A stretch of 63,369 nt of DNA, from the NCBI GenBank assembly GCA_018004935.1, contig JAGNBF010000038.1, positions 1 through 63,369 on the forward strand, given 5' to 3'. The translations under genes and the position numbers were made by a program. The stretch comes from Chloroflexota bacterium (GTDB lineage Bacteria > Chloroflexota > Anaerolineae > Promineifilales > Promineifilaceae). A model generated the notes under the pieces. It saw nothing but the letters and a program-made list of their open reading frames with translations, ran no database searches and was not told where the DNA came from. This document shows, piece by piece, positions 7,224 to 60,865 of the stretch (its first letter is position 1; each line of letters begins with the position of its first letter).

Positions 7224-7665
7224 AAACCGGGAAGTTATATTTTTACAAACCCTAAGCCCCCCAATTTACCTTTCCCGGAAAGGACCGAACATGCACCACC
7301 CCCATAGCGTAACTTTGACCGCCTCTCTGGGTTCTTAACTGAGGGATGGGAGAAATATCGTTGCCTGGGACAAATACCTGCTTTCCCACCTATCCATCGC
7401 CTTGACAGGTTAGCCCCCTGTCACTAGAATCTTCATCGAGTTTGAGCCGCACCGCCCAACTTATTGAGCCACAGACCCTCTTAGGTGTTACATAACACAG
7501 GTGTTGCACAATCCGAGCCATCCGTTTTATCGTGCCTGTTGCCGGTAAAAGCGCGTGTCTGGAATCCCGTGGGTTGCGCCAAAAATTTGCTCGTAACTCT
7601 ACGATAATTCTTGCCACGCCAGCACTGAACACCAGGCAAAAAGTCCACGAGGGAGTAAAAATCGT

Positions 7666-8715: not shown

Positions 8716-8825
8716 TCTGTCCCTACCCCTGACCCCACCGCCAGAGGTGGGGACCTTATTTGGGCGCGGTTTTTCGGGGCTTTCGCCCCGAAAAACCGCG
8801 CCGTGAAGCTCCCCCTTCCCCACAA
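8716..8825. repeat. Family A element, copy with perfect 18-bp hairpin
   Basis: C-rich leader (CCCCTGACCCCACCGCC then AGGTGGGGA) followed by a hairpin with arms 8763-8780 (GGCGCGGTTTTTCGGGGC) and 8785-8802 (its exact complement), loop TTTC. Placed right after the desaturase stop codon, it may end that transcript. Terminal repeats of the family are not visible in this copy. Confidence 0.8.
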
Positions 8826-8912
8826 TAGCTCTATAGACTTGCGGACTCCCCCGGTGCAAACGGGCAGGGTTACTTTCACCTTGCCCCAGGGCGGGACAGG
8901 CACGGGGTGCGT

Positions 8913-9284
8913 CTACATCTCTGCAATGGGGCGTAGGCGTTTAGCTAGATCGCGCAATTGGGCGGGACTGATGGGTTTGAGCAGAACCAGATCCGATTGT
9001 TGGCGCAGATAGTTGGCCAGACGTGCATCGGCGGTGGCAAACATAACCCGTGTCCGCGTCAGACGCTCATCGGCGCGAATCTGTTGCAGAAGATCCTCAC
9101 CAGAGACATGCGGTAAATGTAAATCCAGGACGACAACTGACGGAACTATTTCGGCTAACCGGGCACGGGCCAGGTCGCCATCGGCAATCAGTTCAGTAAC
9201 AAAATCGGCGGCTTCCAAGGCATAGGTAAAAATATCACCTAATTTGGGGTCATCTTCAATAATTAAGGCTAAGGGTTTGCTCAT
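8913..9284 (-). CDS. Receiver-only response regulator (CheY-like), second in operon
   Basis: 123 residues, a single receiver domain. The acidic pair is IIEDD near residue 8, the phospho-acceptor Asp is in VVVLDLHLP, the Thr switch is FATAD, and the conserved Lys is in LLKPIS. There is no output domain, so it acts through a partner protein. Start ATG at 9284 has GGGAGAT seven bases upstream; an earlier start at 9311 is less likely. It follows another receiver gene by 191 bp and the giant histidine kinase, all leftward. Confidence 0.9.
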   Translation of the reverse strand: MSKPLALIIEDDPKLGDIFTYALEAADFVTELIADGDLARARLAEIVPSVVVLDLHLPHVSGEDLLQQIRADERLTRTRVMFATADARLANYLRQQSDLVLLKPISPAQLRDLAKRLRPIAEM

Positions 9285-24500: not shown

Positions 24501-27500
24501 TTGCCACCACCACCGCCAACCGTGCCAACGGTGATGGTACAGATGCTACCGGCGTTGTTGTTGGGGGCACAGCTCCATCCGGGATTGCTGGCGGTGGGGT
24601 TGAAGGTGCTGTTGGCCGGTACGGTATCGGTGATGACGACGCCGGTGGCGTTCTGGTTGCCGTTGTTGGCGTAGCTCAGGGTGTAAGTGATGAGGTCGCC
24701 GGGTTCAACGGTGATGCCGCCGTCGCTCTTGGTGATGGTGAAGTCGGGCGCGGCATTGATGGGGGTGGTGTCACTGCCGCTGTTGTTGGCGGGGGTGGGA
24801 TCGGCTCCATTTGTGCCATCATCGGCGACTGAGGCGGTGTTGCTGATTTGGGTGACACCAGCGGGAACCGGGTTGATTACCGTCACGGCAAAGGTGGCAC
24901 TACCCGTACCACCGCCACCGGCTACGGCTCCTACGGCCAGGGTACAGGTACTACCGGCGTTGTTATCGGGAATACAAGACCATCCGGCGGTGCTGGCTCC
25001 GGCATTGAAGATGGTGTTGACCGGGACAGTTTCACTGAGGACCACGTTGGAAGCGCCCTGGTCGCCATTGTTGGTGTAGCTCAGGGTGTAAGCGACGGTG
25101 CCACCGGGTGAGCTGGTTGCGCCACCATCACTTTTGGTGAGACTCAGGTCGGGGGTGGCGGTGACAGGTGTGGTGTCACTGCCGTTGTTGTTGCCAGGGG
25201 TAGGATCGGCTCCATTTGTGCCATCATCGGCGACGGTTGCGGTGTTGCTGATTTGGGTGACACCGGCAGGAACCGGGTTCACGACGGTTACAGCGAAGGT
25301 AGCCGAACCGGAGCCACCGCCACCAGCTACGGCTCCAATTGCCAGTGTACAGGTACTTCCGGCGTTGTTGTTGGGCACACAGACCCAACCGGCGGTACTG
25401 GCTCCGGCGTTAAAACTGCTGTTAGCGGGTACGGTTTCGGTCAGGTTCACGCCGGTTGCGCCCTGGTTGCCGTTGTTGGCGTAGTTCAGGGTGTAGGCAA
25501 CGGTGCCGCCGGGGGTTGTGGTTGCCCCGCCATCACTCTTGGTGAGGCTCATGTCCGGTGCGGCGTTGATGGGTGTGGTGTCACTATCGCTGTTGTTGGC
25601 GGGGGTGGGGTCGGCACCGTTCGCGCCATCATCGGCGACCGAGGCGGTGTTGCTGATTTGGGTCACACCGGCCGCAACCGGGTTCACGATGGTGACGGCA
25701 AAGGTGGCTGTTCCACCCGCGTTGCCACCGTTGACTGTGCCCACATTGAGCGTACAGACACTGCCCGCATTGTTATTAGGAACACAGGCCCAACCAGCGG
25801 TGCTGACACCTGCATTAAAGGTGCTGTTGGCGGGCACGGTGTCGGTGAGGGTGACGTTGGCGGCACCCTGGTTGCCGGTGTTGTTGTAACTCAGGGTATA
25901 GGCGACGACACCACCGGGTGTGCCTGTTGCGCCGCCATCACTTTTACTGATAGTCAGATCAGGGTTGGCGGTGATGGGAGTGGTATCGGTGCTGTTGTTG
26001 TTGGCCGGGGTGGGGTCAGTGCCGCCTGTGCCATCGTCGTCAATCGCGGCGGTGTTGCTGACCGCATCCAGACCGGCGGGGGCCGGGTTGTTGACGGTCA
26101 CGGCGAAGGTGGCAGAGGCCGCGGCCGCGCCCACATTCACATTCCCCACATTCAGCGTACACACACTGCCCGCGTTGTTATTGGGTACACAACTCCAACC
26201 GGCGGTACTGGCCCCAGGGTTAAAAGTGGTGCCAACTGGGACGGTATCACTTAACGTCACACCGCTGGCGTGTTGGTTGCCGGTGTTGGAATAGGTGAGG
26301 GTGTAGGGAATGACATCACCCGGCACGGCGGAGGGTATACCACCGTCTGTTTTGACAACATTCAGGTCGGGCGCTGCATCAATTGGTGTGCAGGTAGGAT
26401 TGGCCGCCCCCGCTACACTGGGGTCATCAGAAAGGACGTTACTGAAATTACTGCCGCTAATGGTGGCCTGGTTACAGGTGGTGTTGCTACCTGCCGGGAA
26501 TGGGTTTTGAATGACTACCTGGAAGGTGATGGTGGTTTGTTCGCCAAAGGGCATGGTGAAGGGACCAACGGTTGTGATGGCCTCGGGGGCGCGGGCGGGT
26601 AGGGTGTCATCGTTGGTGGGGGTGGGGGGTGCGGCCGCGTCAAGAATCGCCGCACCCGGCTCCGGTGTCTCTTCAGCAATAGGAGTTGCCGAGGGGCTGG
26701 GTTCAATTCCTAAAGTTGGGTAGGGCACAGGTGGAACAGATGAACCCTCAGAGGTAGCCCCTTCTTCAGAAGATATAGCCGGATTGCCTGAATCGGTGGT
26801 TTCAGATGGATTGATCTCGGCATCTGGGCTAGAGATGTAAACCGGGGCAAATGTTGGCAGTGGCGGATTGGTACAGGTGCCATTAAACGTGGGGACGCTA
26901 CCGGCGACGGTGGCCCCACTATTGGCTCCAGCTAGATTGGCAACGGATGATTGGGTGATCTGTCCCACTGCCGGAGCCGCCCCAATCGTGAAATTAATTA
27001 CGCCGGGGGATCCCAAGGCTCCGTTGTCGTTACCCGTAAGATGATAACAACTGTTGGCTTCATCCTGAGTGATGAGAACGATTTCATCTTCATTCGCATC
27101 TACATCAATGTTGATCAGGTCGTTATCAACAAAACGCACCTGTCCTCTGGGGGTAAATACGCCTAAATCTTCATCTGAGAAATAGCGGAAAGCCTCAGAG
27201 GTGGTTTCTCGGAAAGTGTTACCTTCTACGGTCAGGTATAAGTTGCCCTGATGATCCCGGTTCAGGACCTGCATCCCATCATCCCCGCGGCTGTTCAGGT
27301 CAAAACTGTTGTTCAGGACAGCAATGGTCCAGGTGCGGTTTTCGCCGCCGGTAAACCCATCCAGGCTCAGGCGAACACCATCCCCAAGTCCGGCCGCGGG
27401 ATCCATGCTGACGGTGTTGCCGCTAATGGTGCCGTTGAGATTACCACCGGTTGTTCCGGCTGTGGCTATAATAATCCCTTCGATGGTGTTGGTGAGGGTA

Positions 27501-29728
27501 TTATTGAGGATATCAAATGTAACTAATGCGCCGTTTAAGCTGATGACTTCAATGCCACCCCCCGAGGGAAAATTATCTGGTCCCCCGCCATTGGTGGAGG
27601 TGATGGTGGTGATATTGGCATCATTGGTTCCGCTACTGCCACCCCGGAAGGAGACAGAGACGTATTCGATATTGTCAAAGCTGGTGTTGGTTACATTCAG
27701 TTGAATGCTGGCCGTACCGTTGGAGTCAACCGCGATAGCTGTTCCGCCAAACGTATCGTTGTTATCGGCAAAACTACTACCATTGTTGATATTAATAGTC
27801 AGGGATCCGGAGTTGTTGTTTAGATTTAAGGCACGCTCGTAGAAGTTGGTGACATCTACGTTGTTCAGTGTCAGGATTCCGGTTACGTTAGCCGCCCCTG
27901 CGGTGGAAAACGAAAGGGCGTCTTCTTCATCCGCATTACCAACATTATTGAGGGTGACATTGTTAAGGGTCAGGGTATTGACCAACGTGCCGGAGATGCC
28001 ATGTCGGCCGGTGTTGTTAATTGCCATTGAGTTGAAGGTGATGTTGCTGACATTGTTCAAGAATATGCCATCACCACTGGTATTTTGAATCGTTCCCCCC
28101 GAACCGGCACCGCCTGTTCCGGCAATGGTGAAGAAGCCGCCGGTATTGTTTTCCAGATAAATGCCGTTGACTGGCCCATTGACAGTGGCACTGGTGAAGG
28201 TAACGCCGCTGGCCCCTAGAGTCATGTTGCGGATGTTGATGGCTGTGCCGGTGGTGGTGGTGGCGGTGTTGGTCCCGGTGACGTTGAGTGTGCCACCGCC
28301 GGTGGCGGAGAAGGCGGCATTTGTGCCGGTATTCAGCGAGAGGCCACCGGAGAATGTGATGGTGGCGCCAGTGTTGTTGGTTAGCACAATACCGGTAGCG
28401 GTATTGGTGATGGCCCCACTAAAGGTGGCAGTGCCCCCGGTTTTGTTTTGGATGTTGACGGCTCTGGCGGTGGTGTTGTTGATGGTACCGGCGTAGCTGA
28501 TACCAGCCGTACCGGCATTGACAACGAAGGCATCACTGGAACTGCCGCTGAGTGCCCCGGTTCCCAGGTTGAGGGTACCATTGACGGTGGTCAGGGTGAC
28601 GTTGTTTGTGCCACCGGTGGCGGTAACGGCCGTGAAGGTAGCGTTGGCTGTACCGGTTGTGAGGGAGATGCCCCCGTTATTAGTGTTGATGGTGACGAGT
28701 TGCAAATCGAGGGTGCCGAAGTTGTTGCCAAAGAGGGCGAAGTTCGCGGCCGCGCCCGTGTTGCCAAGCGTTACGCCTTGAATGGTATTGTTTTGGGCCA
28801 GGGTAACATCATGCCCCGCCCCGTTGATAAGGGTGGGGTTGGTGCTAACCGCCGGAAAGGTTGTGCCGGTGGGAGGGGTGAGGCCAGAACAGGTCGCCAG
28901 ATTGGCTCCATGTCCACATAACCTTTGCCCATTTTTAAGCACGAAACCGGCGGTGTAGCTGGCTCCCCGGTTATAAATAAAGATGATGTCATTGATGAAA
29001 CTGGCGGTTTGGGCGGAAGAGAGTGCCTGGAACGGATCAAGGGATGTACCTGTACCCGCACCGGCGGCGTTACTGTCTACCCACCAGATGCGGTTAGCCA
29101 CGTTAAAGGTGACTGTGCCGGTATCGGTGAGGCCATGATTGTCGGTAACGGTGTAGGTAAAGGTATCGTTACCGACGAAACTGGCCGGGGGGCCATAGGT
29201 GAAACTGCCGTCACCATTCAGGGTAACAGTACCACCATTGGTCGTGGTGCAGGGGGCGCAGGAAGCGGTTAAGGCTCCGCCATCGGGGTCTACGTCATTG
29301 GCCAACAACCCTGTGCCGAGGGGGTGGGTGATGTGGGTATTGCCAATGGCGTTGTAGGTGTCATTCACCCCCATGGGGGTGGCCCGCAGAGAACCGGCGA
29401 CAACGGTTACTTCTGTGTCATCGGTTACATCAGTGAAGAGGGTATTGGTGCCGTCAGTATCCCCGCTGTTCGCCACCACGATACTGTATTGCAGGGTATC
29501 ACCCGGGTCGGCATTGGTATCGCCGTCCACATCAATGAACAGGGTATCGGTTTTGGTGGCGGTGATGGTGACGGCCTGAGGGGCAGAGGCGAAGGTTTTG
29601 GCCGCACGGGCTAGCGGGCTACTGGCATTGACCAGGCCAAACATGACCAGTGATAACACAAGGGCCAGTAGTAGCGGTGGCAGTGAATGAAGAGTTTGGC
29701 GTAGGAGTGTATTTTTTTTGTGAAACAT
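18509..29728 (-). CDS. Giant surface protein with beta-helix, 11 DUF11 and 11 PKD-like repeats
   Basis: 3739 residues. N-terminal signal peptide (about 1-43), a DUF11-like strand region, an Ig/cadherin-like domain with GLLANDVDPDGG, a right-handed beta-helix rich in N-N-T and G-T-N repeats (about 210-900), and a Pro/Thr/Ser/Glu linker. Then come eleven DUF11 domains of about 135 residues (about 1119-2596), eleven PKD-like domains of about 97 residues (about 2600-3699) with WGDG and ETHTYLDD motifs, and a C-terminal hydrophobic helix with basic tail RRRSQTL. This is the plan of a cell-surface adhesin anchored by its C-terminus. I chose ATG 29728 with GGGAGA upstream; 29806 would put 26 odd residues before the signal. 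It ends the tail-collar/GNAT/DUF6916 run, 89 bp after its neighbour, and may be co-transcribed with it. Confidence 0.9.
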   Translation of the reverse strand: MFHKKNTLLRQTLHSLPPLLLALVLSLVMFGLVNASSPLARAAKTFASAPQAVTITATKTDTLFIDVDGDTNADPGDTLQYSIVVANSGDTDGTNTLFTDVTDDTEVTVVAGSLRATPMGVNDTYNAIGNTHITHPLGTGLLANDVDPDGGALTASCAPCTTTNGGTVTLNGDGSFTYGPPASFVGNDTFTYTVTDNHGLTDTGTVTFNVANRIWWVDSNAAGAGTGTSLDPFQALSSAQTASFINDIIFIYNRGASYTAGFVLKNGQRLCGHGANLATCSGLTPPTGTTFPAVSTNPTLINGAGHDVTLAQNNTIQGVTLGNTGAAANFALFGNNFGTLDLQLVTINTNNGGISLTTGTANATFTAVTATGGTNNVTLTTVNGTLNLGTGALSGSSSDAFVVNAGTAGISYAGTINNTTARAVNIQNKTGGTATFSGAITNTATGIVLTNNTGATITFSGGLSLNTGTNAAFSATGGGTLNVTGTNTATTTTGTAINIRNMTLGASGVTFTSATVNGPVNGIYLENNTGGFFTIAGTGGAGSGGTIQNTSGDGIFLNNVSNITFNSMAINNTGRHGISGTLVNTLTLNNVTLNNVGNADEEDALSFSTAGAANVTGILTLNNVDVTNFYERALNLNNNSGSLTININNGSSFADNNDTFGGTAIAVDSNGTASIQLNVTNTSFDNIEYVSVSFRGGSSGTNDANITTITSTNGGGPDNFPSGGGIEVISLNGALVTFDILNNTLTNTIEGIIIATAGTTGGNLNGTISGNTVSMDPAAGLGDGVRLSLDGFTGGENRTWTIAVLNNSFDLNSRGDDGMQVLNRDHQGNLYLTVEGNTFRETTSEAFRYFSDEDLGVFTPRGQVRFVDNDLINIDVDANEDEIVLITQDEANSCYHLTGNDNGALGSPGVINFTIGAAPAVGQITQSSVANLAGANSGATVAGSVPTFNGTCTNPPLPTFAPVYISSPDAEINPSETTDSGNPAISSEEGATSEGSSVPPVPYPTLGIEPSPSATPIAEETPEPGAAILDAAAPPTPTNDDTLPARAPEAITTVGPFTMPFGEQTTITFQVVIQNPFPAGSNTTCNQATISGSNFSNVLSDDPSVAGAANPTCTPIDAAPDLNVVKTDGGIPSAVPGDVIPYTLTYSNTGNQHASGVTLSDTVPVGTTFNPGASTAGWSCVPNNNAGSVCTLNVGNVNVGAAAASATFAVTVNNPAPAGLDAVSNTAAIDDDGTGGTDPTPANNNSTDTTPITANPDLTISKSDGGATGTPGGVVAYTLSYNNTGNQGAANVTLTDTVPANSTFNAGVSTAGWACVPNNNAGSVCTLNVGTVNGGNAGGTATFAVTIVNPVAAGVTQISNTASVADDGANGADPTPANNSDSDTTPINAAPDMSLTKSDGGATTTPGGTVAYTLNYANNGNQGATGVNLTETVPANSSFNAGASTAGWVCVPNNNAGSTCTLAIGAVAGGGGSGSATFAVTVVNPVPAGVTQISNTATVADDGTNGADPTPGNNNGSDTTPVTATPDLSLTKSDGGATSSPGGTVAYTLSYTNNGDQGASNVVLSETVPVNTIFNAGASTAGWSCIPDNNAGSTCTLAVGAVAGGGGTGSATFAVTVINPVPAGVTQISNTASVADDGTNGADPTPANNSGSDTTPINAAPDFTITKSDGGITVEPGDLITYTLSYANNGNQNATGVVITDTVPANSTFNPTASNPGWSCAPNNNAGSICTITVGTVGGGGGNGFIIFVVTVDDPYLGGPSISNTTTIGDDGNNGADPTPANNSSTDTTPVTNTPDLTIEKSDGGATVAPGGTVAYTLVYTNQNGQGATGVVITETVPANTTFNAGASTAGWACTPNNNAGSTCTLAIGAVAGFGSGSATYAVTVINPVAAGVNQITNTATIGDDGLNGPDSNPGNNSDTDTTPVNAAPELSVTKNDGGATTIPGGTVAYTLNYANNGNQGATGVTLSETVPANATFNAGASTAGWSCVPDNNAGSTCTLAVGAVAATGSGSATFAITVINPIPAGVTQISNTATIADDGANGADPTPGNNSSSDTTPVTATPDMTLTKSDGGATTTPGGTVAYTLNYANNGNQGASGVTLSETVPANSTFNAGASTAGWSCVPDNNAGSTCTLAIGAVAGGGGSGSATFAVTVANPVPSGVTQISNTASVADDGTNGADPTPANNSSSDTTPVAAAPDMTLTKDDGGATTTPGGTVAYTLSYDNVGNQNATGVTLSDTVPANSTFNAGASTAGWSCVPNNNAGSVCTIIIGAVPVTSGPASVTFAVTVNNPVPGGVTQISNTASVADDGTNGTDPTPADNSDTDTTPLTAVPDLSLSKSDGGATGTPGGVIAYTLTYTNSGNQGATGITLTDVVPANTVFNAGASTAGWSCVPDNNAGSTCTLAVGSLAGGGGTGTATFAVTVVNPVAAGVTQTSNTASIADDGTNGADPTPGNNSDTDTTPIAAAPDLQVGKDDGGLDFLPGENITYTIAYTNAGNQGAIGVVVTDTVPANTTFNPTASSAGWVCVPNNNAGSVCTLTVGPLAGGGGSGTATFVVTVDNPAPGVIVINNTACASDNGANGTDLNPADNCGSDSTPIRNQPPVLSNVAITSPINENGSTTLTGNMLDSDGDGFTLTVVWGDGVTDVYTYPAGTASFSETHTYLDDNPTGTASDNYTVNLTLADTFGNNDTDSTTITVNNIAPSLSSVNITSPHNENGTATLTGTITDPGTQDTFTLTVDWGDGSAPQLLNYPAGTTSFSETHTYLDDNPTGTASDSYTVNLTLADDDTGSDTDSDTITINNVAPSLSTLAATNINENGSTTLTGTITDPGTLDTFSLVVNWGDGSAPQTFNYAAGTTSFSETHQYLDDNPTGTSSDDYTISLMLTDDDTGSDTDNTTFTVSNVAPTLSAVAATNVNENGTTTLTGTITDPGTLDTFSLVVNWGDGSAPQTFNYAAGTNSFSETHTYLDDNPTGTPVDNVTINLTLTDDDTGSDTDSDTITVSNVAPTLSGVTATANVNEGSAVTLSGTITDPGTLDTFSLVVDWGDGSAPQTFNYAAATTTFSETHTYQDDNPTGTPSDNVTISLTLTDDDTGSDTDSASVTVNNVAPTLSAVAATNINENGSTTLSGTITDPGTLDTFSLVVDWGDGSAPQTFNYVAGTTSFSETHTYLDDNPTATPSDNYTIGLSLTDDDTGNDTDTTSVTVSNVAPALGSLVISSPINEDDTATLTGTITDPGTLDTFSLVVNWGDGSAPQTFNYVAGTTTFTETHQFLDDNPTVTSSDSYTVSLTLTDDDTGSHTDTATLTVNNVAPALNNVTATAAITETEVVTLTGFIAEVGTQDTFTLTVGWGDGITETFSYPAGTTAFIETHQYLDDGLLRQLLLANFSLALSLSDDDSGVITQTVTVVVNNQAPTLSNVTFPTGVNEGDTATLTGNINEISPLDTFTLAVDWGDGITDTFNYAAATTAFTETHTFQDDDPTATPSDTYTVTLILSDDNGGTDVMTTTITVDNVAPVLDSLAVASVNENDAAALTANLIDPGVLDTFAVVVDWGDGITETFNYGAGTTTISETHTYLDDDPTGTPADSYTVTVGIADDDTGTDADATTLMVNNVNPDVNAGPDQTVDFATVVNFAGSFIDPGTLDSHDIVWDLGDGTIITGTLTPTHLYQTAGTFTATLTITDDDTGTDTDLVQIIVGTPTDVTLVGVRGRAFSSLPFIMFALLVASGIAVILRRRSQTL
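18630..21930 (-). repeat. Tandem PKD-like coding repeats (about 290-bp unit)
   Basis: About ten units of 285-295 bp plus a final PKD domain inside the giant gene. Each unit encodes L-S-x-V, N-E-N/G, TDPGTxDTFSL, WGDGSAPQTFNY, ETHTYLDDNPTGT, LTDDDTGSDTD. Neighbouring units are nearly identical at DNA level (for example around 20240-20300 and 20860-20930), so recombination and assembly collapse are both possible. Confidence 0.9.
21940..26372 (-). repeat. Tandem DUF11 coding repeats (about 400-bp unit)
   Basis: Eleven units of about 135 codons inside the giant gene, each beginning near PDLxLxKSDGGATxTPGG, with a central STAGWSCVPNNNAGSxCTL and ending ADDGTNGADPTPANN. Two conserved cysteines per unit may form an intradomain disulphide. 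Units vary mainly in a Gly-rich loop. Octamer GCGGCCGC is nearly absent from the centre of the array (23147-26120). Confidence 0.9.
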
Positions 29729-29817
29729 GTGATTCTCCCGATGAAATCTGAGTGGATGGAATTGGGGATGGGCAGAATTGAACAGGCGGGTTTCCCAGTG
29801 ATACAAGTTTTGTTTTG

Positions 29818-40208: not shown

Positions 40209-41309
40209 TTACGGTACAACAATTTCATTGATAGGTCTACTCTCTGCCAGGCGTTTGAGTAACTGTTGTAAGTCCGGCTTGATGGGAGTGCGGATCATGT
40301 CCTGAAAACTGGGTTCACTACGAATTCCTGTGGCAATTGGGCCAGCATAAAGTTGATGATCTTTTAATTCGATGATATCAGTAGGGTTTTGTTGTTGGCT
40401 ACCATACGAGAAACTGAGCATATTGACTTCCGACGAATGGGTGGTAATGAATTGCCGCAAATCCAAAGCTGTGGACGCCGAAATATAGTCGGCTAATGTA
40501 TCTTGCACTAACCACACAGCCTTACCGCCCCAATGCAGGGCTACTTCTGATTTGACGATCAACTGGCTGACCATTCTCGCCCAAACTTGTCGCTTGTTAA
40601 TAGATGGAGCATTGTGTGGTCGTGCTAACAAAGCATCTTCAAAAGCCTGCGCAATGGTCGTTCGCTGAGCCTTATTCCCCCCAGATGTGCTAGAAGTCAT
40701 AATTTCAATGATGCCAGGTATACCAACCGGGCAATCTTCTACAAAATCTTCGTCGTTGTGCCTGATGATAGTATACCCGCCTTGCACAAATACTTTGCGC
40801 CATAACGCCCACGGTGCGAAAAAGGTCGCCAACTGGCTTTGACTAACCGAAGCAATAGGCATCACAATGTAATCGAAGGTATAGTCGAAAGTTTTCGTAA
40901 GACCTTGCCTGGTTTCCGCAAACTTCAGTTTAACCTCTGACCAGACACCCAGCCGTGTACCGGATGGAAAGCCTAATATCCGCACAAGTTCTGCCTCTAC
41001 ATTCATCTGATAGGCTCGTTTGAATGCCTTTTTGCTCCCTAAGATCAGCAACCGCCGAGGACAAACAACCCAGGGTGTTTCATCTTCACGTAGTTGAATG
41101 GAACATACACCAACCGCTACAACTCTCCGCTCTCCAAAATAGGTTTTGAGTAGTTCATTTCTCGTCAAATCTACCTGTGAAGAATAACGATTGCCACCCC
41201 CATCACAAGGCCCCCCCATAAATGGGCAATGTGCAGTATGCCGGGTTTCTTCTGCTATTGGGGTTTTGACGGATAAGGGGTAACCAAATAGTTCATAGAT
41301 TTGGGGCAT
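40209..41309 (-). CDS. NotI-family type II restriction endonuclease
   Basis: 366 residues, close to NotI (383). Points seen in both by recall of the NotI sequence: an N-terminal FG-Y/H start, a Cys-Pro-Phe (C28) in AHCPF, a second Cys (C35), GVC (C69), W-x-V-C-P-x-R-x-L (C83, WVVCPRRLL), an F-D-Y/W segment (D146), and GI-IEIMT (E202; NotI has EIQT). NotI uses a Cys4 iron site and a PD-(D/E)XK fold; the four cysteines here match in order. The Asp-to-Glu spacing is longer than in NotI, so an insertion is likely. It starts 17 bp inside the methyltransferase gene, AAGG spaced before ATG 41309. It lies in the longest stretch without GCGGCCGC. Exact specificity is not shown by sequence. Confidence 0.8.
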   Translation of the reverse strand: MPQIYELFGYPLSVKTPIAEETRHTAHCPFMGGPCDGGGNRYSSQVDLTRNELLKTYFGERRVVAVGVCSIQLREDETPWVVCPRRLLILGSKKAFKRAYQMNVEAELVRILGFPSGTRLGVWSEVKLKFAETRQGLTKTFDYTFDYIVMPIASVSQSQLATFFAPWALWRKVFVQGGYTIIRHNDEDFVEDCPVGIPGIIEIMTSSTSGGNKAQRTTIAQAFEDALLARPHNAPSINKRQVWARMVSQLIVKSEVALHWGGKAVWLVQDTLADYISASTALDLRQFITTHSSEVNMLSFSYGSQQQNPTDIIELKDHQLYAGPIATGIRSEPSFQDMIRTPIKPDLQQLLKRLAESRPINEIVVP

Positions 41310-42420
41310 TAAACACCTTGATGATTTCTGTGGCAAGGGCATGAGCAACTGGTGGTGGGACAGAATTAGCGACCTGGCGATGTTGATCCAGGCGACGCGC
41401 ACGCCCAGAACGTCCACGAATAGGGCCACGGAGAATATATTCATCCGGGTAGCCATGAATACGCATATATTCACGGGGGGTTAGATAGCGATTATCTGTA
41501 GGGTGAAAAAATATTTCGCCACAACGCAATGTATTAGACGGTTCTTGTCTTGAAAGTCGTTTGAACTTGGTTGTGTCTTTTTTCGTCAAATTACAGCGTT
41601 GTTCCTTGGGCAAATGGTGTTGTGCCGCTAAATGCGAACCTTCCGGGACACCATTGATGCGAAAACGGTCACCACTCGGCGTAACATCTAAGTGGCTGTT
41701 TTCAGGAATATATCCATTTTGCGGATAGGGGGAACCCAAACCATTGAGTACTTCGCCTACTGTTATAAACGGAGGCAAAGAAAAGAGGGGTGTCGTTTTA
41801 CCTTGTGCATTATGGGTGGGTTCTGGGAATTGGTAATTATTTGGTCTAAGGGTGGCTACAATAAACACCCTCTGGCGAAGTTGAGCCACACCATATTCGG
41901 CAGAGTTAACAACCTTCCATTTAGGCACATAACCTAATACTTCTAGTTCTAGCAACAGTTGTTCAAAAGCTCCCCCAGGCTTACCGTTTTCATCAGGTGA
42001 ATTAAGTAAACCCTTCACTTGTTCAATGAGAATGGCACGGGGCTTAAAGATTGCCGCAAAACGTGTCATTTCAAAGAGCAATAAACCACGTGAATCATTC
42101 AGACTGTGCCGTTTACCAATTTGGGAAAATGCTTGACAAGGGGGACCGCCACATAATAAATCCAATTGACCACTGGCTAAGGATAGTTCAGCCATTAGCA
42201 TAGCAGGATCGATCTGGCGAATGTCTTTTTCAATTACTTTTGTCTGCAATTGTTCGCGCTGAATATTGTCACGGAGCGTTTCGCAGGCATAGGGATCGAG
42301 TTCAACACAGGCCAATACATCGAATCCAGCTTGCCTGACACCAATATCCATCCCCCCTGCTCCCGAAAATAAGGATAAGGCTCTGAACTTGTTTTTCGTC
42401 GTTACAATTGCATTTTCCAT
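41293..42420 (-). CDS. DNA cytosine-5 methyltransferase
   Basis: 375 residues with ordered C5-methyltransferase motifs: I LSLFSGAGGMDIG (15-27), IV GGPPCQAFS with catalytic C95, VI as IEQV (E133; the common form is ENV), VIII YGVAQLRQRVFIVA (176-189), a variable target-recognition region, and IX/X ending in QVANSVPPPVAHALA near 360. It methylates carbon 5 of a cytosine in a specific DNA site. Paired with the overlapping endonuclease gene, it is probably the protective methylase of a type II system. Composition is more A/T-rich than neighbours and it contains no GCGGCCGC, consistent with recent transfer. Confidence 0.93.
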   Translation of the reverse strand: MENAIVTTKNKFRALSLFSGAGGMDIGVRQAGFDVLACVELDPYACETLRDNIQREQLQTKVIEKDIRQIDPAMLMAELSLASGQLDLLCGGPPCQAFSQIGKRHSLNDSRGLLLFEMTRFAAIFKPRAILIEQVKGLLNSPDENGKPGGAFEQLLLELEVLGYVPKWKVVNSAEYGVAQLRQRVFIVATLRPNNYQFPEPTHNAQGKTTPLFSLPPFITVGEVLNGLGSPYPQNGYIPENSHLDVTPSGDRFRINGVPEGSHLAAQHHLPKEQRCNLTKKDTTKFKRLSRQEPSNTLRCGEIFFHPTDNRYLTPREYMRIHGYPDEYILRGPIRGRSGRARRLDQHRQVANSVPPPVAHALATEIIKVFNAPNL

Positions 42421-53539: not shown

Positions 53540-53777
53540 ACGTTCCGTTACTCCACCCGGCGGTCAAACCGCCGGGCTATCCGTACCCAGCCCTACGGGC
53601 TAAAACAGCAGGCCAATGGCCTTCGTGACCATAGCCCGGCACATGAGAAAGTTCCCCGCTCCTCGGGGCGGGGTTAGGGGCGGGGGATACCATGTTACCT
53701 GACTGTTTTTTTAAACGACAAACGGCCTGGGTAACAATACGGACGGCGTGGATGAATTTACATGACTGAACGGTTAC
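53536..53777 (+). mobile_element. Family B element with a nested family A fragment
   Basis: Ends GTAAACGTTCCGT (53536-53548) and ACTGAACGGTTAC (53765-53777), hairpin CCCGGCGG-TCAAA-CCGCCGGG near 53557, interior shared with 34312-34469, and an inserted reversed family A piece at about 53645-53700 (TTCCCCGCTCCTCGGGGCGG). Flanking GGAACAG (53528-53534) and GGAGCAG (53778-53784) may be a worn target duplication. It overlaps the end of the flippase gene and reaches the region just before the phosphatase start. Confidence 0.75.
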
Positions 53778-53806
53778 GGAGCAGGCTGAATTTCGCCGAG
53801 AATCCT

Positions 53807-54295
53807 ATGAAAACATTACTTATTTTGCGTCATGCCAAATCGAGTTGGGCCAATGTGAATCAAACGGATCATGAACGGCCGCTGAATGGACGGGGGAAAA
53901 AGGATGCCCCGCAGGTGGGGCGGGTACTTAAGGAAAAACAGATCACCCCAGATCTGATTATTACCTCTACCGCGGAACGAGCTTTGGCGACGGCGGAAGC
54001 GGCCGCGATCAGCAGTGATTATGACCATGAGTTAAAACTAGATGGTCGGCTTTACCTTGCCCCTGTTTTCACTTACCTGGCCGTTTTGCGTGAACTGGGC
54101 ACTGGCCCGGCCTGTGTCATGGTTGTAGGCCACAATCCCGGGTCAGAAGATCTGGTGTATCATCTAACGGACGAACCAGAGTTGATGCCTACAGCCGCCC
54201 TGGCCTGCATCACACTACCCCTGGCCCATTGGTCGGAGCTAGATGAAAAGGTGAAAGGGAAATTGGTGTGGTCATGGCGGCCGCACGATGAATGA
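53807..54295 (+). CDS. SixA-type histidine phosphatase
   Basis: 162 residues. The phosphohistidine motif LRHAKSSW (RHA at about 8) and the second active-site region VVGHNPGSE are intact, with IITSTAERALATAEA between, the pattern of SixA-like phosphatases that remove phosphate from phosphohistidine of histidine kinases or phosphotransferases. I chose ATG 53807; the frame continues upstream to 53762 but that part is the end of a mobile repeat. A GCGGCCGC octamer encodes part of the C-terminal WRPHDE. Nothing in the neighbourhood shows the substrate. Confidence 0.85.
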   Translation: MKTLLILRHAKSSWANVNQTDHERPLNGRGKKDAPQVGRVLKEKQITPDLIITSTAERALATAEAAAISSDYDHELKLDGRLYLAPVFTYLAVLRELGTGPACVMVVGHNPGSEDLVYHLTDEPELMPTAALACITLPLAHWSELDEKVKGKLVWSWRPHDE

Positions 54296-54420: not shown

Positions 54421-57400
54421 CTAAGCGGCTTTCTTTTTCACTGCCCGTTCGGCTCCATTACTCTCATACAACTTACTCAGGCTTTTGTTTCGGGCGACCC
54501 ATAACCCCACCAGGCCAATCTTCAATTCATAAAGCGAGGTAGCATCATCCCCCAGCTCGCGCAAGATGTCTCGTTGCCCCAACCGGTTCAGGGCGATAGT
54601 CACTTCGGCGGGGGTGAGTTGGATGTTGTATTTACTCAGGTATTGGAGCAGATCAGAGGGGTGGAAGGGGCGCTCACGATCCATCAGATGTGCGGCCGCG
54701 GTGAGGAGCGCTCGTTCAGCTTGTGATGATTGTTGCCACAAGTACGCAAAATGGGCCTCGCCCAAACTCAACATCTGATCCAGCGTGGCGTTTACATCCG
54801 AGATGGTGATGTAAGGGTTTTTTTGCTCGTTGGCCCGGTTGACCAGGGTATAACAAACAAGTTGCAGGAAGTAAGGATGACCGGCCGTCACCCGCAAGAT
54901 CTTCTCCAGGGCCAGATCATCATAAACCAGGTGCGGGCTAACTGGTTCTGTGATCAGCCGGGTTGCGGCCGCGGTGTCCAGAAAACCGATTTCCCCATGT
55001 AAGGCAATATTAAACAAAACAGACCAGTAATCACTGCTCATCTCTTCTAGCCGGTGTGTGCCCACAAACACAAAACTCAGCCCTTCCGCATGTTGCATCA
55101 GGTGGCGCAGGTAGGTGAAAAACGTCGGTGGCAAAATGCCATCATTGACCAGGTTTTGGAATGCTTCAAACTCATCAAACACAAGCAGGAGAGTTGTGCC
55201 AGGAGGTAAGAGCGCCTGGGCGGAGGGAATAAATTGCCGTTGGAAGAGATGGGTAGGATTTTCATTCCAGACCGCTCGGTCTGGTATCTCTATGGCAAAC
55301 CCTTTGGTGGCTAAGGCATCGGCAATGGCCCAGGCCAGGTCATAAAACAGGGCGGCCATCCCTTCTACCACGCCCAATGATTGGCAATCAATATACACCA
55401 CCAGCAGGTTTTCGGGCAGATGTTGATCTAACCGTAACAGGGCGGATGTTTTGCCGGTGCGCCGCTGTCCTACCATGATCAGGACTCGATTTTGCTCGCT
55501 GTGGCGCACGTTTTCGGCAATAAAGTGGAAAAACCGTTCCCGCCCTACAAACAGGGGGCTATTACGGCGGAGCGGTGTGCCCGGCGAATACGGGTTCATA
55601 ATGGCGGTAAAATCACGTGCGGGAGGCAAGAGGTGCACCATGTCGGCAAATTCCACCGTTTTGCGGGTACGGTGGCGGTCATCGTAAATAACCTCACACA
55701 CCAGACGGAAGCGGTCTGTTACCCGGGGGGCGATGGTAAAACTGATGGGGCGGCCGCGACCAGGCGGTAAAAAGGGAAAGGTTTGATCAGGGCTGTGGCG
55801 GTCAAAGGCCGGACTTTCGGCCAGGGAAATAATGACGTTTTCGGCGGGGGCGCGGCCGCTATTTTTGATCTCCAGGGTCACTTCCGTCTCATCACCGGCC
55901 ACAAGCCGCCGGGTTTTAAGCCGAACTTCCAGGCTGGCCTGACCTTGAATCTCCTCGGTAGCGGCTGTGACCAACCCCAACCAACGCGCTGTTATAGCTG
56001 TTACCAGACATTTTTCGATCCGGTTTACCTGCCAGGTCACCCGCTCTTGTAACTGTAATAACAATGTTTCGGCGTCGCGCAAGTAAACCAGGCGATCCCC
56101 GGCTTCTTCGACACGCTCACTGTCACTGATGCGGGTGATGATGGGGAGAAGGGCATCTAGCGACATGGCGGGTCGTTCGGCGCGGCCGCGAATTCGTAAC
56201 GCTTCGCCCAATTGCGGCCGCAACAAACTTAACTCCGTAATCGAAGGGGCCGTCAGTAACTGCTGGGCCGTCTTAAACGTGGCCTGCCACGAAGCCAGGT
56301 CACGCCAGATGGGTGCCATCTGCTTGCCTTCTTCCAGGGCACCCAAAATAATGGGCAACCCGGCTTCTGGTCGCCCTGTGAGCAAGAACAACCCATCCAC
56401 CAGCCCCGCCAGAGCCGGATTCCCCTCTAGCCGGGCCTGATTGGCCAGTCCCAGCAAAAAGCCAGGGGCATCGGCATTCAAGTTATAGGCCACCTTTATC
56501 ATGTTAAGAGTGGCATCCGGCTGTTGCAGTAAGCGCCGATAAAAGCGGCGTGCCCGGACATCCGGTTGCCAGGTCCGACGCATAAACGCACCGCCAAACC
56601 CCACCAACAAAGTTACCAAAACCCCCGCCAGTACCCACATCCCTGTCCTGTCTTCCCGTTGCACCACCAGCGGGGGCGGGCCAACCATTGGCTCGACCAG
56701 ACCAGAGTGGACATCATCATGATAAATGAAGCGGTATTGCACCCCGGCGGTGGTGGCCGGTGGCTCAATCAGCCAGAAAAGAGATTCATTGCGTTGCGCT
56801 GTTTGTTCCCCCTGCGATACCCAGGTATTGCTTACCGGATCAAACACTTCAAGCCGTATCCCGACAACCTCATTTTCTTCGATATTAATGACCGATATGT
56901 TCAGGCTGTAACCGGCTTCATTGGCTTCGGCCAGGCTGTTAAAGAGCAATGGGGCGCGGTTGACCTGCTTCTGGAACAGGCGCACCACTCCCGTCTCGGT
57001 GATGGCTACCAGTTCATCGGGCTGATCGGCCTGTCGCTGTATCCCTGTAAGCCAGAAAATTTCCCCCGCCATTTCTAACTGATCCCACAGATCGCGCTCA
57101 TCGGCGGTGTAGAGGTACACCACACCATCCCGATTGCCCACAGCAATATCTGGCACAATGTCACCGTTGAGGTCGCCCCAATAAAAGGCGGTAATTCGCC
57201 CCGGTTCGGTGAGTCGCCAGGTCTCGGAGGGGGATGGTTCATTGACATAGGCCAGCCGGATCAGGTCCCCCTCTTCCGTGACTACATAGAGGGAGTTGCC
57301 GCCGACGAAGCTGTTGATCGGTGTGCGATTACTCTGGTACTCCCATAATGAGCGCCCTTCGGCCCCCAGGCCCTGGATAATGCCATCTTGCCCGGTTACG

Positions 57401-59559
57401 ATCAGTTGCGAAGGCGGCAGGCCCTCTGGGGTGAGGGTTTGCAGGTTGACGACGTTTTGCAGGTAAGCCAGTTGATTTTTAGGCAGGCCTTTGTTGCTGA
57501 GGAAATGGAGCAGATTTGATTGGGTAATGGCGACTAATTCGCGGCGGTCGCCCCGATTGAGATCGAACCATAATAATTGATCCACGCGACCGGTGAGGCT
57601 GGTTTGCCAGAGGCGCTCTCCGGTGAGAGAGTAGGCTAGGATTTGTCCGTCAATGGTGCCAATGAGAATTTCCGGGCGACCTTCTTCGTTGATGTCGGCG
57701 ATGAGCAGGCTGGTAATGAAGACGGGAAGCTGGATGCCTGCCCCCCAGACGGGATCGGGCTGACCATCGTTGGGGCGGAGGACGGTGATGTGACCGGTGT
57801 AGCTTTGCACGCCACGCGGGTTGGTGCGGCTCTGGTTGTAAACGACGACCAGCCCCGGCTGGCGTTTGCTATCGGTGTAAGCCAGGGCAGTCTGCCAGAT
57901 GATGCCATCCATTTCGGTAAACCAGCGGCGGTTGCCGCTGTTGCTTTCGATGAGGTAGAGGATACCTCCTTCGGTACCAATGAGGAGTTCTTCCTGACCG
58001 TCATCTTCTACATCGAGAACCAGGGCGGTCTGCGGCCGCGTGTCCAAACGGAAATTCCATAATTCCTGGTTGCGTCCGGGGCCAAAACCGGGATCCAGCA
58101 GTTCTAACGAGCCATAACCGGCCAGAAGTAATTCCTCCCGCCCATCCTGGTTAATATCTACCAGGCGGGACAACCCAGTGAAGGAAGTTGTAGTGAAATT
58201 GGTGCTGAGGATGCGTCCCTCGTTGCTAAGCAGGAGTAGATGAGCTGGTTCGGTAGCGGTGAGGTCGTCAGCGTTCAGTAGAATATCTTCACGGGTGGGA
58301 GCGGGGGCTAAGTCGGTGATGTTGGGGTTGGCTTCATTTTCGGCCAGGTCATCGGGGCCGAGGGGGGGGAGTACGGGACTGGCTTCGGTGGCGGTGGTTA
58401 AGAGGGGTTCTTCTCCGGCGGCCAGGGTAACGGCTAAGGCAATAGGTTGTACCTCAGTGGTGGGGTTGGGAGAAATGGTAACGACACCTTGCTCCGGGGT
58501 GGGGGCCAGTTGATTATCCCAAAAGGTGCGGCCGCTACTGGTGTAGGCGATAAGTCGCCCGACGGTTGTGCCCACTAACAGATGGGGGATGCCATCCAGG
58601 GGGGCCATTTGTAGGGCCGAAATAGGTTTGTTGGGGGTGCGAAACCAGCGTTCGGTGTTGCGCTGACTATCAATGTAATGAACGCGGCCGCGGTCTGTGC
58701 CTACCACAATATCTTGCGGCTGTTCTGGGTCAAAATTGGTGAATGTCAGGGCGGTAATCTGCCCTTCCACCGCCCGATCCCATATGGCTGTTCCCTGCGT
58801 ATTGAGGAGTGCCAGTTCACTATAGCTCCCACTGGTAAGATAACTGACAGCAACTTCGGGTAAGCCATCGCGGTTGGTGTCCCCAATTTGCACCAGGGGG
58901 GCGGGTTGGCTGGCGGGACGGGCGTAGCCAGTATACCGCCACACCAATTGCCCGGTTGTACTGTAGAGTCGGAGTTGACCGGAACTCAGCGCCACTAATA
59001 TTTCGTCTACCCCATCCTGGTTGTAATCCATAATTACCAGACTGACGGGGGTTACGGGCATGAGGCGCGTCCAACGTTCGTTGCCGGTTTCATCAAGCAG
59101 GCTCAGGTGGGATAGGGTGACGAAGGCAATACTGCGGCCGCGTTCGTTCGCTCCGTTGCGATCCACTGTTTGTAACTGGAGAATGCGAGCTGGGGCGGTA
59201 TAACTGCTGGGCCAGAGCGGTTGCCCCCCAGAGCTAAGGGCCGTGATTTTGGTGCCATCTGCGACCAAGACAAATTCCGCAAAATTATCATCGTTTAGGT
59301 CAGCGACTTCGAGCGAGGTAATCTGGCCCGTGGCGTCGTATTGCCAATAAGCGGGGGAAATGGTCTGGCTATGGGCGGGGGTAGGGGTAAAAAACAAGTA
59401 AGCGGTGAATAGCAGGCAAAGAAGTGTAAGCGGTCGGCGATAACGCCTGAGTCGTAAAGATCCCCCATGCCAGGCCCAAAAGAGGCAACGCTCCAGCATT
59501 TTTTGAAGGTCTATAGCGTCTTGGCGGGTACTCTTTCCCATGGCGTTACGGTTCGTCAT
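54421..59559 (-). CDS. Membrane beta-propeller fused to a STAND-like ATPase
   Basis: 1712 residues. N-terminal signal anchor (about 38-60, PLTLLCLLFTAYLFFTPTPA), then an extracytoplasmic region of about 850 residues with FG-GAP/PQQ-like propeller repeats (DxNxDGxxEI, as in DYNQDGVDEILVALSSG and DINEEGRPEILIG), and one membrane helix (about 965-990, WVLAGVLVTLLVGFGGAF). The cytoplasmic part has a CARDB-like segment (VTLEIKNSGRAPAENVIISL) at about 1230 and an ATPase with Walker A VGQRRTGKTS (near 1360), Walker B LLLVFDEFE (near 1456) and a C-terminal winged helix. It overlaps the upstream AAA regulator gene by 14 bp (or starts at 59541 with a 4-bp gap). I infer a signal receptor whose ATPase reports propeller binding to the partner. 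Eleven or more octamers. Confidence 0.88.
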   Translation of the reverse strand: MTNRNAMGKSTRQDAIDLQKMLERCLFWAWHGGSLRLRRYRRPLTLLCLLFTAYLFFTPTPAHSQTISPAYWQYDATGQITSLEVADLNDDNFAEFVLVADGTKITALSSGGQPLWPSSYTAPARILQLQTVDRNGANERGRSIAFVTLSHLSLLDETGNERWTRLMPVTPVSLVIMDYNQDGVDEILVALSSGQLRLYSTTGQLVWRYTGYARPASQPAPLVQIGDTNRDGLPEVAVSYLTSGSYSELALLNTQGTAIWDRAVEGQITALTFTNFDPEQPQDIVVGTDRGRVHYIDSQRNTERWFRTPNKPISALQMAPLDGIPHLLVGTTVGRLIAYTSSGRTFWDNQLAPTPEQGVVTISPNPTTEVQPIALAVTLAAGEEPLLTTATEASPVLPPLGPDDLAENEANPNITDLAPAPTREDILLNADDLTATEPAHLLLLSNEGRILSTNFTTTSFTGLSRLVDINQDGREELLLAGYGSLELLDPGFGPGRNQELWNFRLDTRPQTALVLDVEDDGQEELLIGTEGGILYLIESNSGNRRWFTEMDGIIWQTALAYTDSKRQPGLVVVYNQSRTNPRGVQSYTGHITVLRPNDGQPDPVWGAGIQLPVFITSLLIADINEEGRPEILIGTIDGQILAYSLTGERLWQTSLTGRVDQLLWFDLNRGDRRELVAITQSNLLHFLSNKGLPKNQLAYLQNVVNLQTLTPEGLPPSQLIVTGQDGIIQGLGAEGRSLWEYQSNRTPINSFVGGNSLYVVTEEGDLIRLAYVNEPSPSETWRLTEPGRITAFYWGDLNGDIVPDIAVGNRDGVVYLYTADERDLWDQLEMAGEIFWLTGIQRQADQPDELVAITETGVVRLFQKQVNRAPLLFNSLAEANEAGYSLNISVINIEENEVVGIRLEVFDPVSNTWVSQGEQTAQRNESLFWLIEPPATTAGVQYRFIYHDDVHSGLVEPMVGPPPLVVQREDRTGMWVLAGVLVTLLVGFGGAFMRRTWQPDVRARRFYRRLLQQPDATLNMIKVAYNLNADAPGFLLGLANQARLEGNPALAGLVDGLFLLTGRPEAGLPIILGALEEGKQMAPIWRDLASWQATFKTAQQLLTAPSITELSLLRPQLGEALRIRGRAERPAMSLDALLPIITRISDSERVEEAGDRLVYLRDAETLLLQLQERVTWQVNRIEKCLVTAITARWLGLVTAATEEIQGQASLEVRLKTRRLVAGDETEVTLEIKNSGRAPAENVIISLAESPAFDRHSPDQTFPFLPPGRGRPISFTIAPRVTDRFRLVCEVIYDDRHRTRKTVEFADMVHLLPPARDFTAIMNPYSPGTPLRRNSPLFVGRERFFHFIAENVRHSEQNRVLIMVGQRRTGKTSALLRLDQHLPENLLVVYIDCQSLGVVEGMAALFYDLAWAIADALATKGFAIEIPDRAVWNENPTHLFQRQFIPSAQALLPPGTTLLLVFDEFEAFQNLVNDGILPPTFFTYLRHLMQHAEGLSFVFVGTHRLEEMSSDYWSVLFNIALHGEIGFLDTAAATRLITEPVSPHLVYDDLALEKILRVTAGHPYFLQLVCYTLVNRANEQKNPYITISDVNATLDQMLSLGEAHFAYLWQQSSQAERALLTAAAHLMDRERPFHPSDLLQYLSKYNIQLTPAEVTIALNRLGQRDILRELGDDATSLYELKIGLVGLWVARNKSLSKLYESNGAERAVKKKAA

Positions 59560-60865
59560 TCAGCGGCGGCCGCAGGGCATATCCCACGCCCCGTTCACTG
59601 ACGATCCAGTTGCCAAACGGTTCAATGGCCCGACGCAGGCGTTTGATGAGGGTTTTCAGACGATCTGCTGGGTCTTTGATGATGTTATTGCCCCACACGG
59701 CCATCTCTAATTCTTCCCCATGAACCACATCATTCATCTGTTTACCCAGGCATACCAAAATGTCGAATTGGGATGTGGTGAGATTGATTTCCTGGCCGTT
59801 GGCTTTGACCTGGTGTTTTTGCGGATCGATGACAAATGGGCCAGCCTGGATCAGCCCCTCTACCTGTTGGCGACGAATAAACCGGCGCAAGATTTCACTG
59901 GTGTAGCGGTAGCCCTGTTCTGAGGGACTGAGCAGGCATTGTTGTTCTAACATACGTAGAATGTCTACCGGCCCATCACTGATTGCCAGGGTGTATTGGG
60001 CCTCAGGGGTGAGGTTTTGCCACAAGTAACTCAGGTGAGATTCGGACTCAATTTCGATGGGGGTGTCCAGAGTTTCTAGATCGGCCACGGCGCTATCTGC
60101 CAACATCTGGAAGATATGGTACCCGGCCACGTGTAGAAAAAATGGATGGGGACCTACCAGGTAGTGAATATGGCTGATAATCTCCGGGCTGAAATGGACA
60201 CCCGTGCCCTCTAGCCGGGATAACATCAGTTCGCGGGCTTCGGTTTCATTCATCAACCCCAGGGGGAGTGTGACAAAGATGTTGAAAAAGGGCGAACTCA
60301 GGATTTTCTCGTCAGCGGTGATGAGGAAGAGGGGGTGCTGACTGGCGGTAAGATAGGCCAGGCCATATTTGGTCGTAAGACCCCGCAGGCGGGCAAAGAA
60401 GTAGGGGGTCAGTTGTTCGTTGCTGGCGAGTAGTTCAAATTCATCAAGCAGAACGACAACACCTATCCCCTGCTGTGTAACCTGGTGAAGGGTGCGGTCC
60501 AGGGCACGGTAACTATCACCATTGGGTGGCGGTGCGAGGGGGATATGGGCGGTCGCGGCCGCGTCCTGCAACCCCGTCAGAAATACCTCATACACCTCTT
60601 CCGGCGGCGACCCCCCTAACTCCTGGCAATCTACCAGGACAAAAAGCATCTGGGGTGGGGCTAAATTGAACGGTGCCCGTACTTCTGGGCGGCATAGGTG
60701 AAGGAAAAGTGAGCTTTTACCAATGCGGCGGGGGCCGATCAGGGAAACACTCTGCCCGTTGCGTAGTAAACCTAAAATTTGGGCCGTCTCAGCCGAGCGG
60801 CCAAAGAAATGTTGGGCATGACGGATAGCGCCACGATGATAAAACGGGTTTTCCAGATTGTTCAT
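59546..60865 (-). CDS. AAA-type ATPase with OmpR-like winged-helix DNA-binding domain
   Basis: 439 residues. N-terminal STAND-like ATPase with Walker A GPRRIGKSS (43-51), Walker B GVVVLLDEFELL (about 145-156) and a sensor region. The C-terminus (about 345-435) is a Trans_reg_C winged helix: ANGQEINLTTSQFDILVCLG, DRLKTLIKRLRRAI and SERGVGYALRP. So it couples nucleotide binding to DNA binding. Start ATG 60865 has AAAGG upstream; a start at 60904 is possible. It is followed with 14-bp overlap by the membrane propeller-ATPase, which has the same ATPase type, arguing that the two form one signalling pair. There is no receiver or kinase domain in either. Confidence 0.88.
   Translation of the reverse strand: MNNLENPFYHRGAIRHAQHFFGRSAETAQILGLLRNGQSVSLIGPRRIGKSSLFLHLCRPEVRAPFNLAPPQMLFVLVDCQELGGSPPEEVYEVFLTGLQDAAATAHIPLAPPPNGDSYRALDRTLHQVTQQGIGVVVLLDEFELLASNEQLTPYFFARLRGLTTKYGLAYLTASQHPLFLITADEKILSSPFFNIFVTLPLGLMNETEARELMLSRLEGTGVHFSPEIISHIHYLVGPHPFFLHVAGYHIFQMLADSAVADLETLDTPIEIESESHLSYLWQNLTPEAQYTLAISDGPVDILRMLEQQCLLSPSEQGYRYTSEILRRFIRRQQVEGLIQAGPFVIDPQKHQVKANGQEINLTTSQFDILVCLGKQMNDVVHGEELEMAVWGNNIIKDPADRLKTLIKRLRRAIEPFGNWIVSERGVGYALRPPLNDEP

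Follow-up and report, generated by a model that had tools for sequence, protein, structure and literature searches.

Bacteria usually relay information from the membrane to promoters through phosphotransfer, one-component regulators, sigma/anti-sigma pairs, or proteolysis. Here we report a gene pair from a Chloroflexota bacterium that encodes a membrane receptor (type A protein) and a DNA-binding regulator (type B protein), each of which contains a STAND ATPase. Two-component systems likewise encode a membrane sensor and a separate OmpR-type regulator side by side, but in our pair STAND ATPases replace the HisKA/HATPase_c and receiver domains. CadC and ToxR also link an OmpR-type winged-helix domain (wHTH) to an extracytoplasmic sensor; while they contain the wHTH, transmembrane (TM) region, and sensor in one polypeptide, our pair splits the wHTH and the TM receptor into two proteins. 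MalT/LAL and SARP-type STAND factors also fuse a STAND ATPase to a DNA-binding domain, yet each of those factors is one protein that brings its own sensor repeats, whereas the putative sensor described here is a separate STAND protein. Plant paired NLRs, such as RPS4/RRS1 and Pik-1/Pik-2, resemble our pair by analogy only: their STAND genes are linked, with one product sensing and the other executing, but they are eukaryotic cytosolic NB-ARC/LRR proteins that end in cell death, without a membrane receptor or an OmpR regulator (PMC9528088).

In the open-access literature the only direct prior art that we found is one paragraph and one figure panel on nSTAND2 proteins (Kaur, Iyer, Burroughs and Aravind 2021, Fig. 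6C; PMC8195603), and a description elsewhere is possible. These authors described a mobile two-gene operon with an nSTAND2 NTPase in each gene, in which one partner has eroded NTP motifs and is fused to GT4 or HEPN, and predicted that the products form a toroidal hetero-multimer in counter-invader defense. Our pair is similar in that the genes are adjacent, each encodes a STAND core, and B matches the nSTAND2 model. It differs in that both ATPases are intact, with the Walker K, D, and E conserved; in that GT4 and HEPN are absent from the pair and from the relatives scanned; and in that A is a transmembrane propeller receptor while B carries an OmpR wHTH (or a kinase in relatives). Since our pair has neither the dead ATPase nor the GT4/HEPN features, we did not assign it to that system. 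It is a variant of the two-STAND design, active-active and leading from a transmembrane protein to transcription (or to a kinase).

The window (i.e., the whole stretch of 63,369 nucleotides that was analyzed) contains the two genes on its minus strand, with the regulator upstream and the receptor downstream. The features of the pair are as follows.

59546-60865, minus strand: regulator gene, type B, 439 aa from its ATG (open reading frame; orthologues 59-69% identical in the family)
59873-60865, minus strand: type B STAND ATPase (nSTAND2), residues 1-331, with Walker A GPRRIGKSS, Walker B LLDEFE, and helical and winged-helix lids (Pfam, alignment, and model)
59573-59851, minus strand: OmpR/PhoB-type winged-helix DNA-binding domain, residues 339-431 (Trans_reg_C; VanR, PhoB, and YycF structures)
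59546-59559, minus strand: 14-nt overlap of the receptor and regulator genes (coordinates of the open reading frames)
54421-59559, minus strand: receptor gene, type A, 1712 aa (open reading frame, Pfam, and orthologues)
59374-59430, minus strand: signal-peptide-like hydrophobic segment, residues 44-62 (hydropathy 1.58; sequence LTLLCLLFTAYLFFTPTPA-HSQ)
56644-59367, minus strand: propeller ectodomain, residues ~65-972 (FG-GAP_3, E 3.9e-21; Beta-prop_CGLA, BBS7, and BamB-like matches)
56581-56637, minus strand: transmembrane helix, residues 975-993 (hydropathy 2.1; recurs in orthologues)
55630-56502, minus strand: cytoplasmic linker, residues 1020-1310, a helical array followed by a NEW3/CARDB-like beta-sandwich (AlphaFold2 model and a weak NPCBM_assoc match)
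54454-55602, minus strand: type A STAND ATPase, residues 1320-1702, with Walker A GQRRTGKTS and Walker B FDEF intact (Pfam, alignment, and model)

The initial annotation had claimed these two overlapping open reading frames, and both are present with the lengths and positions given above. It had also described the receptor as a membrane protein with an outer propeller and an inner ATPase, which agrees with the Pfam matches and hydropathy, and the regulator as an ATPase joined to an OmpR-like DNA-binding domain, which agrees with matches to nSTAND2 (PF20702; residues 41-285; 63.6 bits, with the cut-off at 24; E 2.4e-17) and Trans_reg_C (PF00486; residues 357-431, E 1.5e-12). Its statement that the receptor ATPase is STAND-like is supported by profile-profile comparison and by fold, while the Pfam match of this domain is AAA_22 (residues 1356-1507, E 4.7e-11) and its nSTAND2 score of 11.3 bits is below the cut-off, which some other A proteins pass (L101, 41.9 bits; L103, 27.3 bits). 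That the locus encodes a receptor/regulator pair of ATPases is virtually certain.

Within the receptor, the TM helix is followed by a basic stretch, RRTWQPDVRARR, consistent with a positive-inside orientation. Both the signal-peptide-like segment and the TM helix are present again in most orthologues of the receptor clade, and the cytoplasmic linker is common to A proteins of the GAF type. A PDB sequence search with the receptor returned zero matches. The AlphaFold2 model of its cytoplasmic part is fair (pLDDT 84.8, pTM 0.63), and that of the regulator is good (pLDDT 89.5, pTM 0.83). An upstream TTG would extend the regulator to 452 aa; its orthologues share the start MxxxNPF with the 439-aa ATG form. 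The last 95 residues of the regulator resemble the DNA-binding domains of VanR and PhoB (VanR, Z 16.1 over 95 residues). By fold and sequence the regulator belongs to the OmpR/PhoB winged-helix family, and it is predicted to bind promoters. Histidine kinase, HisKA/HATPase_c, and receiver domains were absent from both proteins in Pfam and NCBIfam scans, which rules out that the pair is a two-component system whose kinase or receiver is concealed; likeness of the pair to response regulators is limited to the C-terminal wHTH of the regulator.

We found that the closest fold for both ATPases is the archaeal protein PABY2304 (2qen; Z 21.2 over 305 residues for B and 22.7 over 333 residues for A). 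Further neighbors of both are SSO1545 (2fna), followed by Orc/Cdc6 proteins including Orc2, plant NLR resistosomes, and CED-4, with TnsC also among the near folds. As modeled, each ATPase has a Walker A/B core with helical and winged-helix lids, which places both among the STAND ATPases. In alignments of the A and B families a GR near the N-terminus and the GxxGK, DE, and GHP motifs are conserved. The Walker A lysine and the Walker B Asp/Glu are retained at 97-100% in each of the two families, and the helix that precedes the last core strands carries an arginine conserved in 87% of A and 100% of B. The profiles of A and B align across the entire domain (hhalign probability 100, E 3.3e-48, 23% identity), and relatives are sorted cleanly into A or B by profile score. 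In a tree of 126 domains every A lies on one side of a single branch (SH-aLRT 82). The two genes had been said to carry the same ATPase type, and the comparison bears this out, since the domains are not from unrelated clades: judged by sequence, A and B are homologous sister families. Solitary wHTH-ATPases form their own group in this tree (support 98), and this separate, related clade does occur without A, often near PspA. Its members (L125-L144) are found in many Anaerolineae genomes, with a PspA/IM30 gene nearby at nine loci as well as vWA and solute-binding proteins (e.g., L136:6943-8313 with L136:8442-9116, and L125:6522-7880 with L125:5527-6216). This clade may regulate the Psp envelope-stress response, by analogy with PspF.

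We scanned 150 genomes of the class for pairing, defining strong A as at least 360 bits and strong B as at least 280 bits. Of the 46 strong A, 41 had a same-strand B gene no more than 6.5 kb away, and an A neighbor was found for 36 of the 38 strong B, so regulators of this clade do not usually occur alone, a pattern that would have counted against the pairing proposed in the initial annotation. Most of the lone strong hits come from short contigs: those of both unpaired B, and of three of the five unpaired A, are 3-6.6 kb long. Weaker A hits (200-300 bits) had B nearby in only 11 of 32 cases. An independent GTDB scan of 84,980 species with A alone returned 79 loci, 64 of them with usable context. 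A same-strand B was present within 2 kb in 56 of the 64 and a divergent B in two (Dictyobacter kobayashii and D. arantiisoli), while six had none by this rule. For two of these six (L188 and L238) B is located further along, and the genomes of the orphan receptors L169 and L173 encode elsewhere a regulator 66-67% identical to that of the window. A tblastn search of plasmids found only distant relatives.

The patristic distances of A and B are correlated across 46 pairs (r 0.83, against a maximum of 0.34 over 5000 permutations), and the correlation is still 0.75 when limited to distant pairs. For two-pair genomes (G021/G129, G037/G069, and G000/G133), the tree places each A in one set and its B in the matching set. 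Since these paralogous pairs are faithful to their partners, shared species history alone is an insufficient explanation, and the pairing counts together with the mirrored trees rule out chance adjacency of A and B. Adjacency and co-evolution show functional linkage of A and B rather than the direction of signaling. Our data indicate that A and B are, with high probability, an obligate functional pair.

The domains that surround the ATPases are diverse. A proteins of the window clade have FG-GAP propeller ectodomains, while other A proteins carry a multi-TM region with GAF (L091, from the same genome as the window, and L092), NACHT and HEAT (L098), WD40 and a phosphonate-binding protein (L099), TPR/BNR (L108), TPR and an S24 peptidase (L106), TCAD9/NUDIX (L220), or S1 repeats (L234). 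At L101:9036-12485 an HD-RelA/SpoT-TGS-ACT stringent-response protein is fused to the A ATPase, with its partner wHTH-B at 7653-9017. Some A proteins have the ATPase at the N-terminus and soluble repeats, so that the receptor layout is one of several. The pair is also present in two archaeal chromosome-scale MAGs, from Methanomassiliicoccales and Thermoplasmata (L195 and L211), with HEAT repeats on the A of L195. Among 116 B proteins, 42 end in an OmpR wHTH, 23 carry a Ser/Thr protein kinase, and 38 end shortly after the ATPase; the remainder have TIR (L112) or other long tails. On the B tree, the output must have switched between four classes at least 15 times. The genome of the window (G000) encodes a second pair, on contig C151, which combines a multi-TM/GAF A with a kinase B, and at one exceptional locus (L154) the wHTH is carried by A. 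A single GAF-type A lies between a wHTH-B and a kinase-B at L185:2838-11713, possibly one sensor that drives two outputs. From domain content, inputs are mainly on A and outputs mainly on B, and the ATPase pair is the constant part. This variety around a constant ATPase pair is our main argument for transfer from A to B, with contact as its presumed means, and domain swapping on both sides together with the mirrored trees supports passage of the signal through the ATPase pair, so that the interpretation offered in the initial annotation is partly supported.

For the pair in the window we infer that A and B are in physical contact, that the signal runs from the former to the latter, that nucleotide switching takes place, and that the output is transcriptional. 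A would be the sensor STAND ATPase and B the output STAND ATPase of a two-protein signaling device. The extracytoplasmic propeller would detect an outside cue (a ligand, the cell wall, or a partner protein), which would be relayed via the single TM helix and the cytoplasmic linker to the ATPase of A. This ATPase would then exit its closed ADP state, and A would recruit or nucleate B through ATPase-ATPase contact. Once assembled, B would alter the promoter binding or the activity of its OmpR-type winged helix, and in sister pairs this A-B core would act on a Ser/Thr kinase instead. We consider it likely that A senses and B acts, and moderately likely that transfer is direct, from ATPase to ATPase, with a transcriptional output. 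A broader proposal, to which we give even chances, is that the pair follows a general logic parallel to that of two-component systems, in which a sensor STAND with swappable inputs and an output STAND with swappable outputs (transcription, Ser/Thr kinase, or TIR) communicate by ATPase-ATPase assembly. This logic would extend across Chloroflexota and to other phyla and archaea, and here it would connect membrane to promoter without phosphotransfer.

The same architecture might instead be a paired immune STAND, in which A recognizes an invader or envelope damage and an A-B ring starts a defense program, here via transcription. The related operon, whose two products both have an nSTAND2 core, was predicted to act against invaders (PMC8195603), both folds resemble NLR resistosomes, and relatives of our pair carry TIR on both proteins (L112), TCAD9 (L220), or a methylase/specificity fusion beside HsdR (on an Acinetobacter plasmid). 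However, the pair and its orthologues lie in stable housekeeping synteny rather than in a variable island. A SixA-like histidine phosphatase gene (53762-54295, plus strand) is convergent with the receptor, and this arrangement is shared by 13 of the 27 orthologous loci. Further out, the orthologues are surrounded by genes that were named by eye from sequence as enolase, cysteine desulfurase, and TrmU-like. Such a stable chromosomal place is easier to reconcile with vertical inheritance and a regulatory function than with a mobile defense cassette, and a recent mobile defense island is unsupported for this pair. Moreover, the output is a DNA-binding domain and not a toxin, the ectodomain is predicted to be extracellular, and PADLOC gave no convincing match for either protein (best, PDC-S27 with E 6e-4 for the regulator and PDC-S01 with E 0.065 for the receptor); strong PADLOC matches of the L091 kinase are confined to its kinase domain. 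We regard an immune role for the window pair as unlikely. The same A-B core has likely been put to immune use in other lineages, as at L112:5169-10440, where TIR is present on both proteins and A has several TM segments, and in a restriction operon of an Acinetobacter ursingii plasmid (L251:1062-8827, NZ_MH220285.1). The latter encodes HsdR, an N6-methylase/specificity/A-type STAND fusion, and then a B-like STAND whose ATPase has lost the Walker B glutamate (MDGFD), and we view it as a type I-like restriction system with a built-in STAND pair.

It is improbable that the two proteins share an operon but work separately, with the receptor ATPase acting on another target and the wHTH-ATPase serving as a stand-alone one-component regulator. 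The solitary clade indicates that a B-like protein can work alone and three receptors are without an adjacent B, but A and B stay paired whether the output is a wHTH or a kinase and with many different inputs, the trees are mirrored, and split partners persist in trans. The proximity of both ATPase folds to Orc/Cdc6 and TnsC would also suit a hetero-oligomer that the winged helix loads onto DNA and the receptor tethers to the membrane, which would make the pair less a transcription switch than a chromosome/envelope anchor. The kinase and TIR outputs of sister pairs do not fit DNA anchoring, and the wHTH is nearest to the transcriptional PhoB/VanR domains, which leaves this reading very improbable. 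If signal transfer from A to B is correct, the modular STAND pair would be an additional route of transmembrane signaling to promoters, would connect ordinary regulation with immune ATPases of the NLR-like kind, and would provide a bacterial counterpart of sensor/helper NLR pairs that is simple enough to reconstitute. It also provides many Chloroflexota genes of unknown function with a role that can be tested.

Elsewhere in the window, inspection by eye found two further minus-strand loci. The first (18509-29806) encodes a 3765-aa cell-surface protein with long arrays of DUF11-like/PKD-like repeats, a terminal TM region, and a basic tail. The second (40209-42420) contains a DNA cytosine-5 methylase-like open reading frame that is overlapped by another open reading frame, a possible restriction partner.
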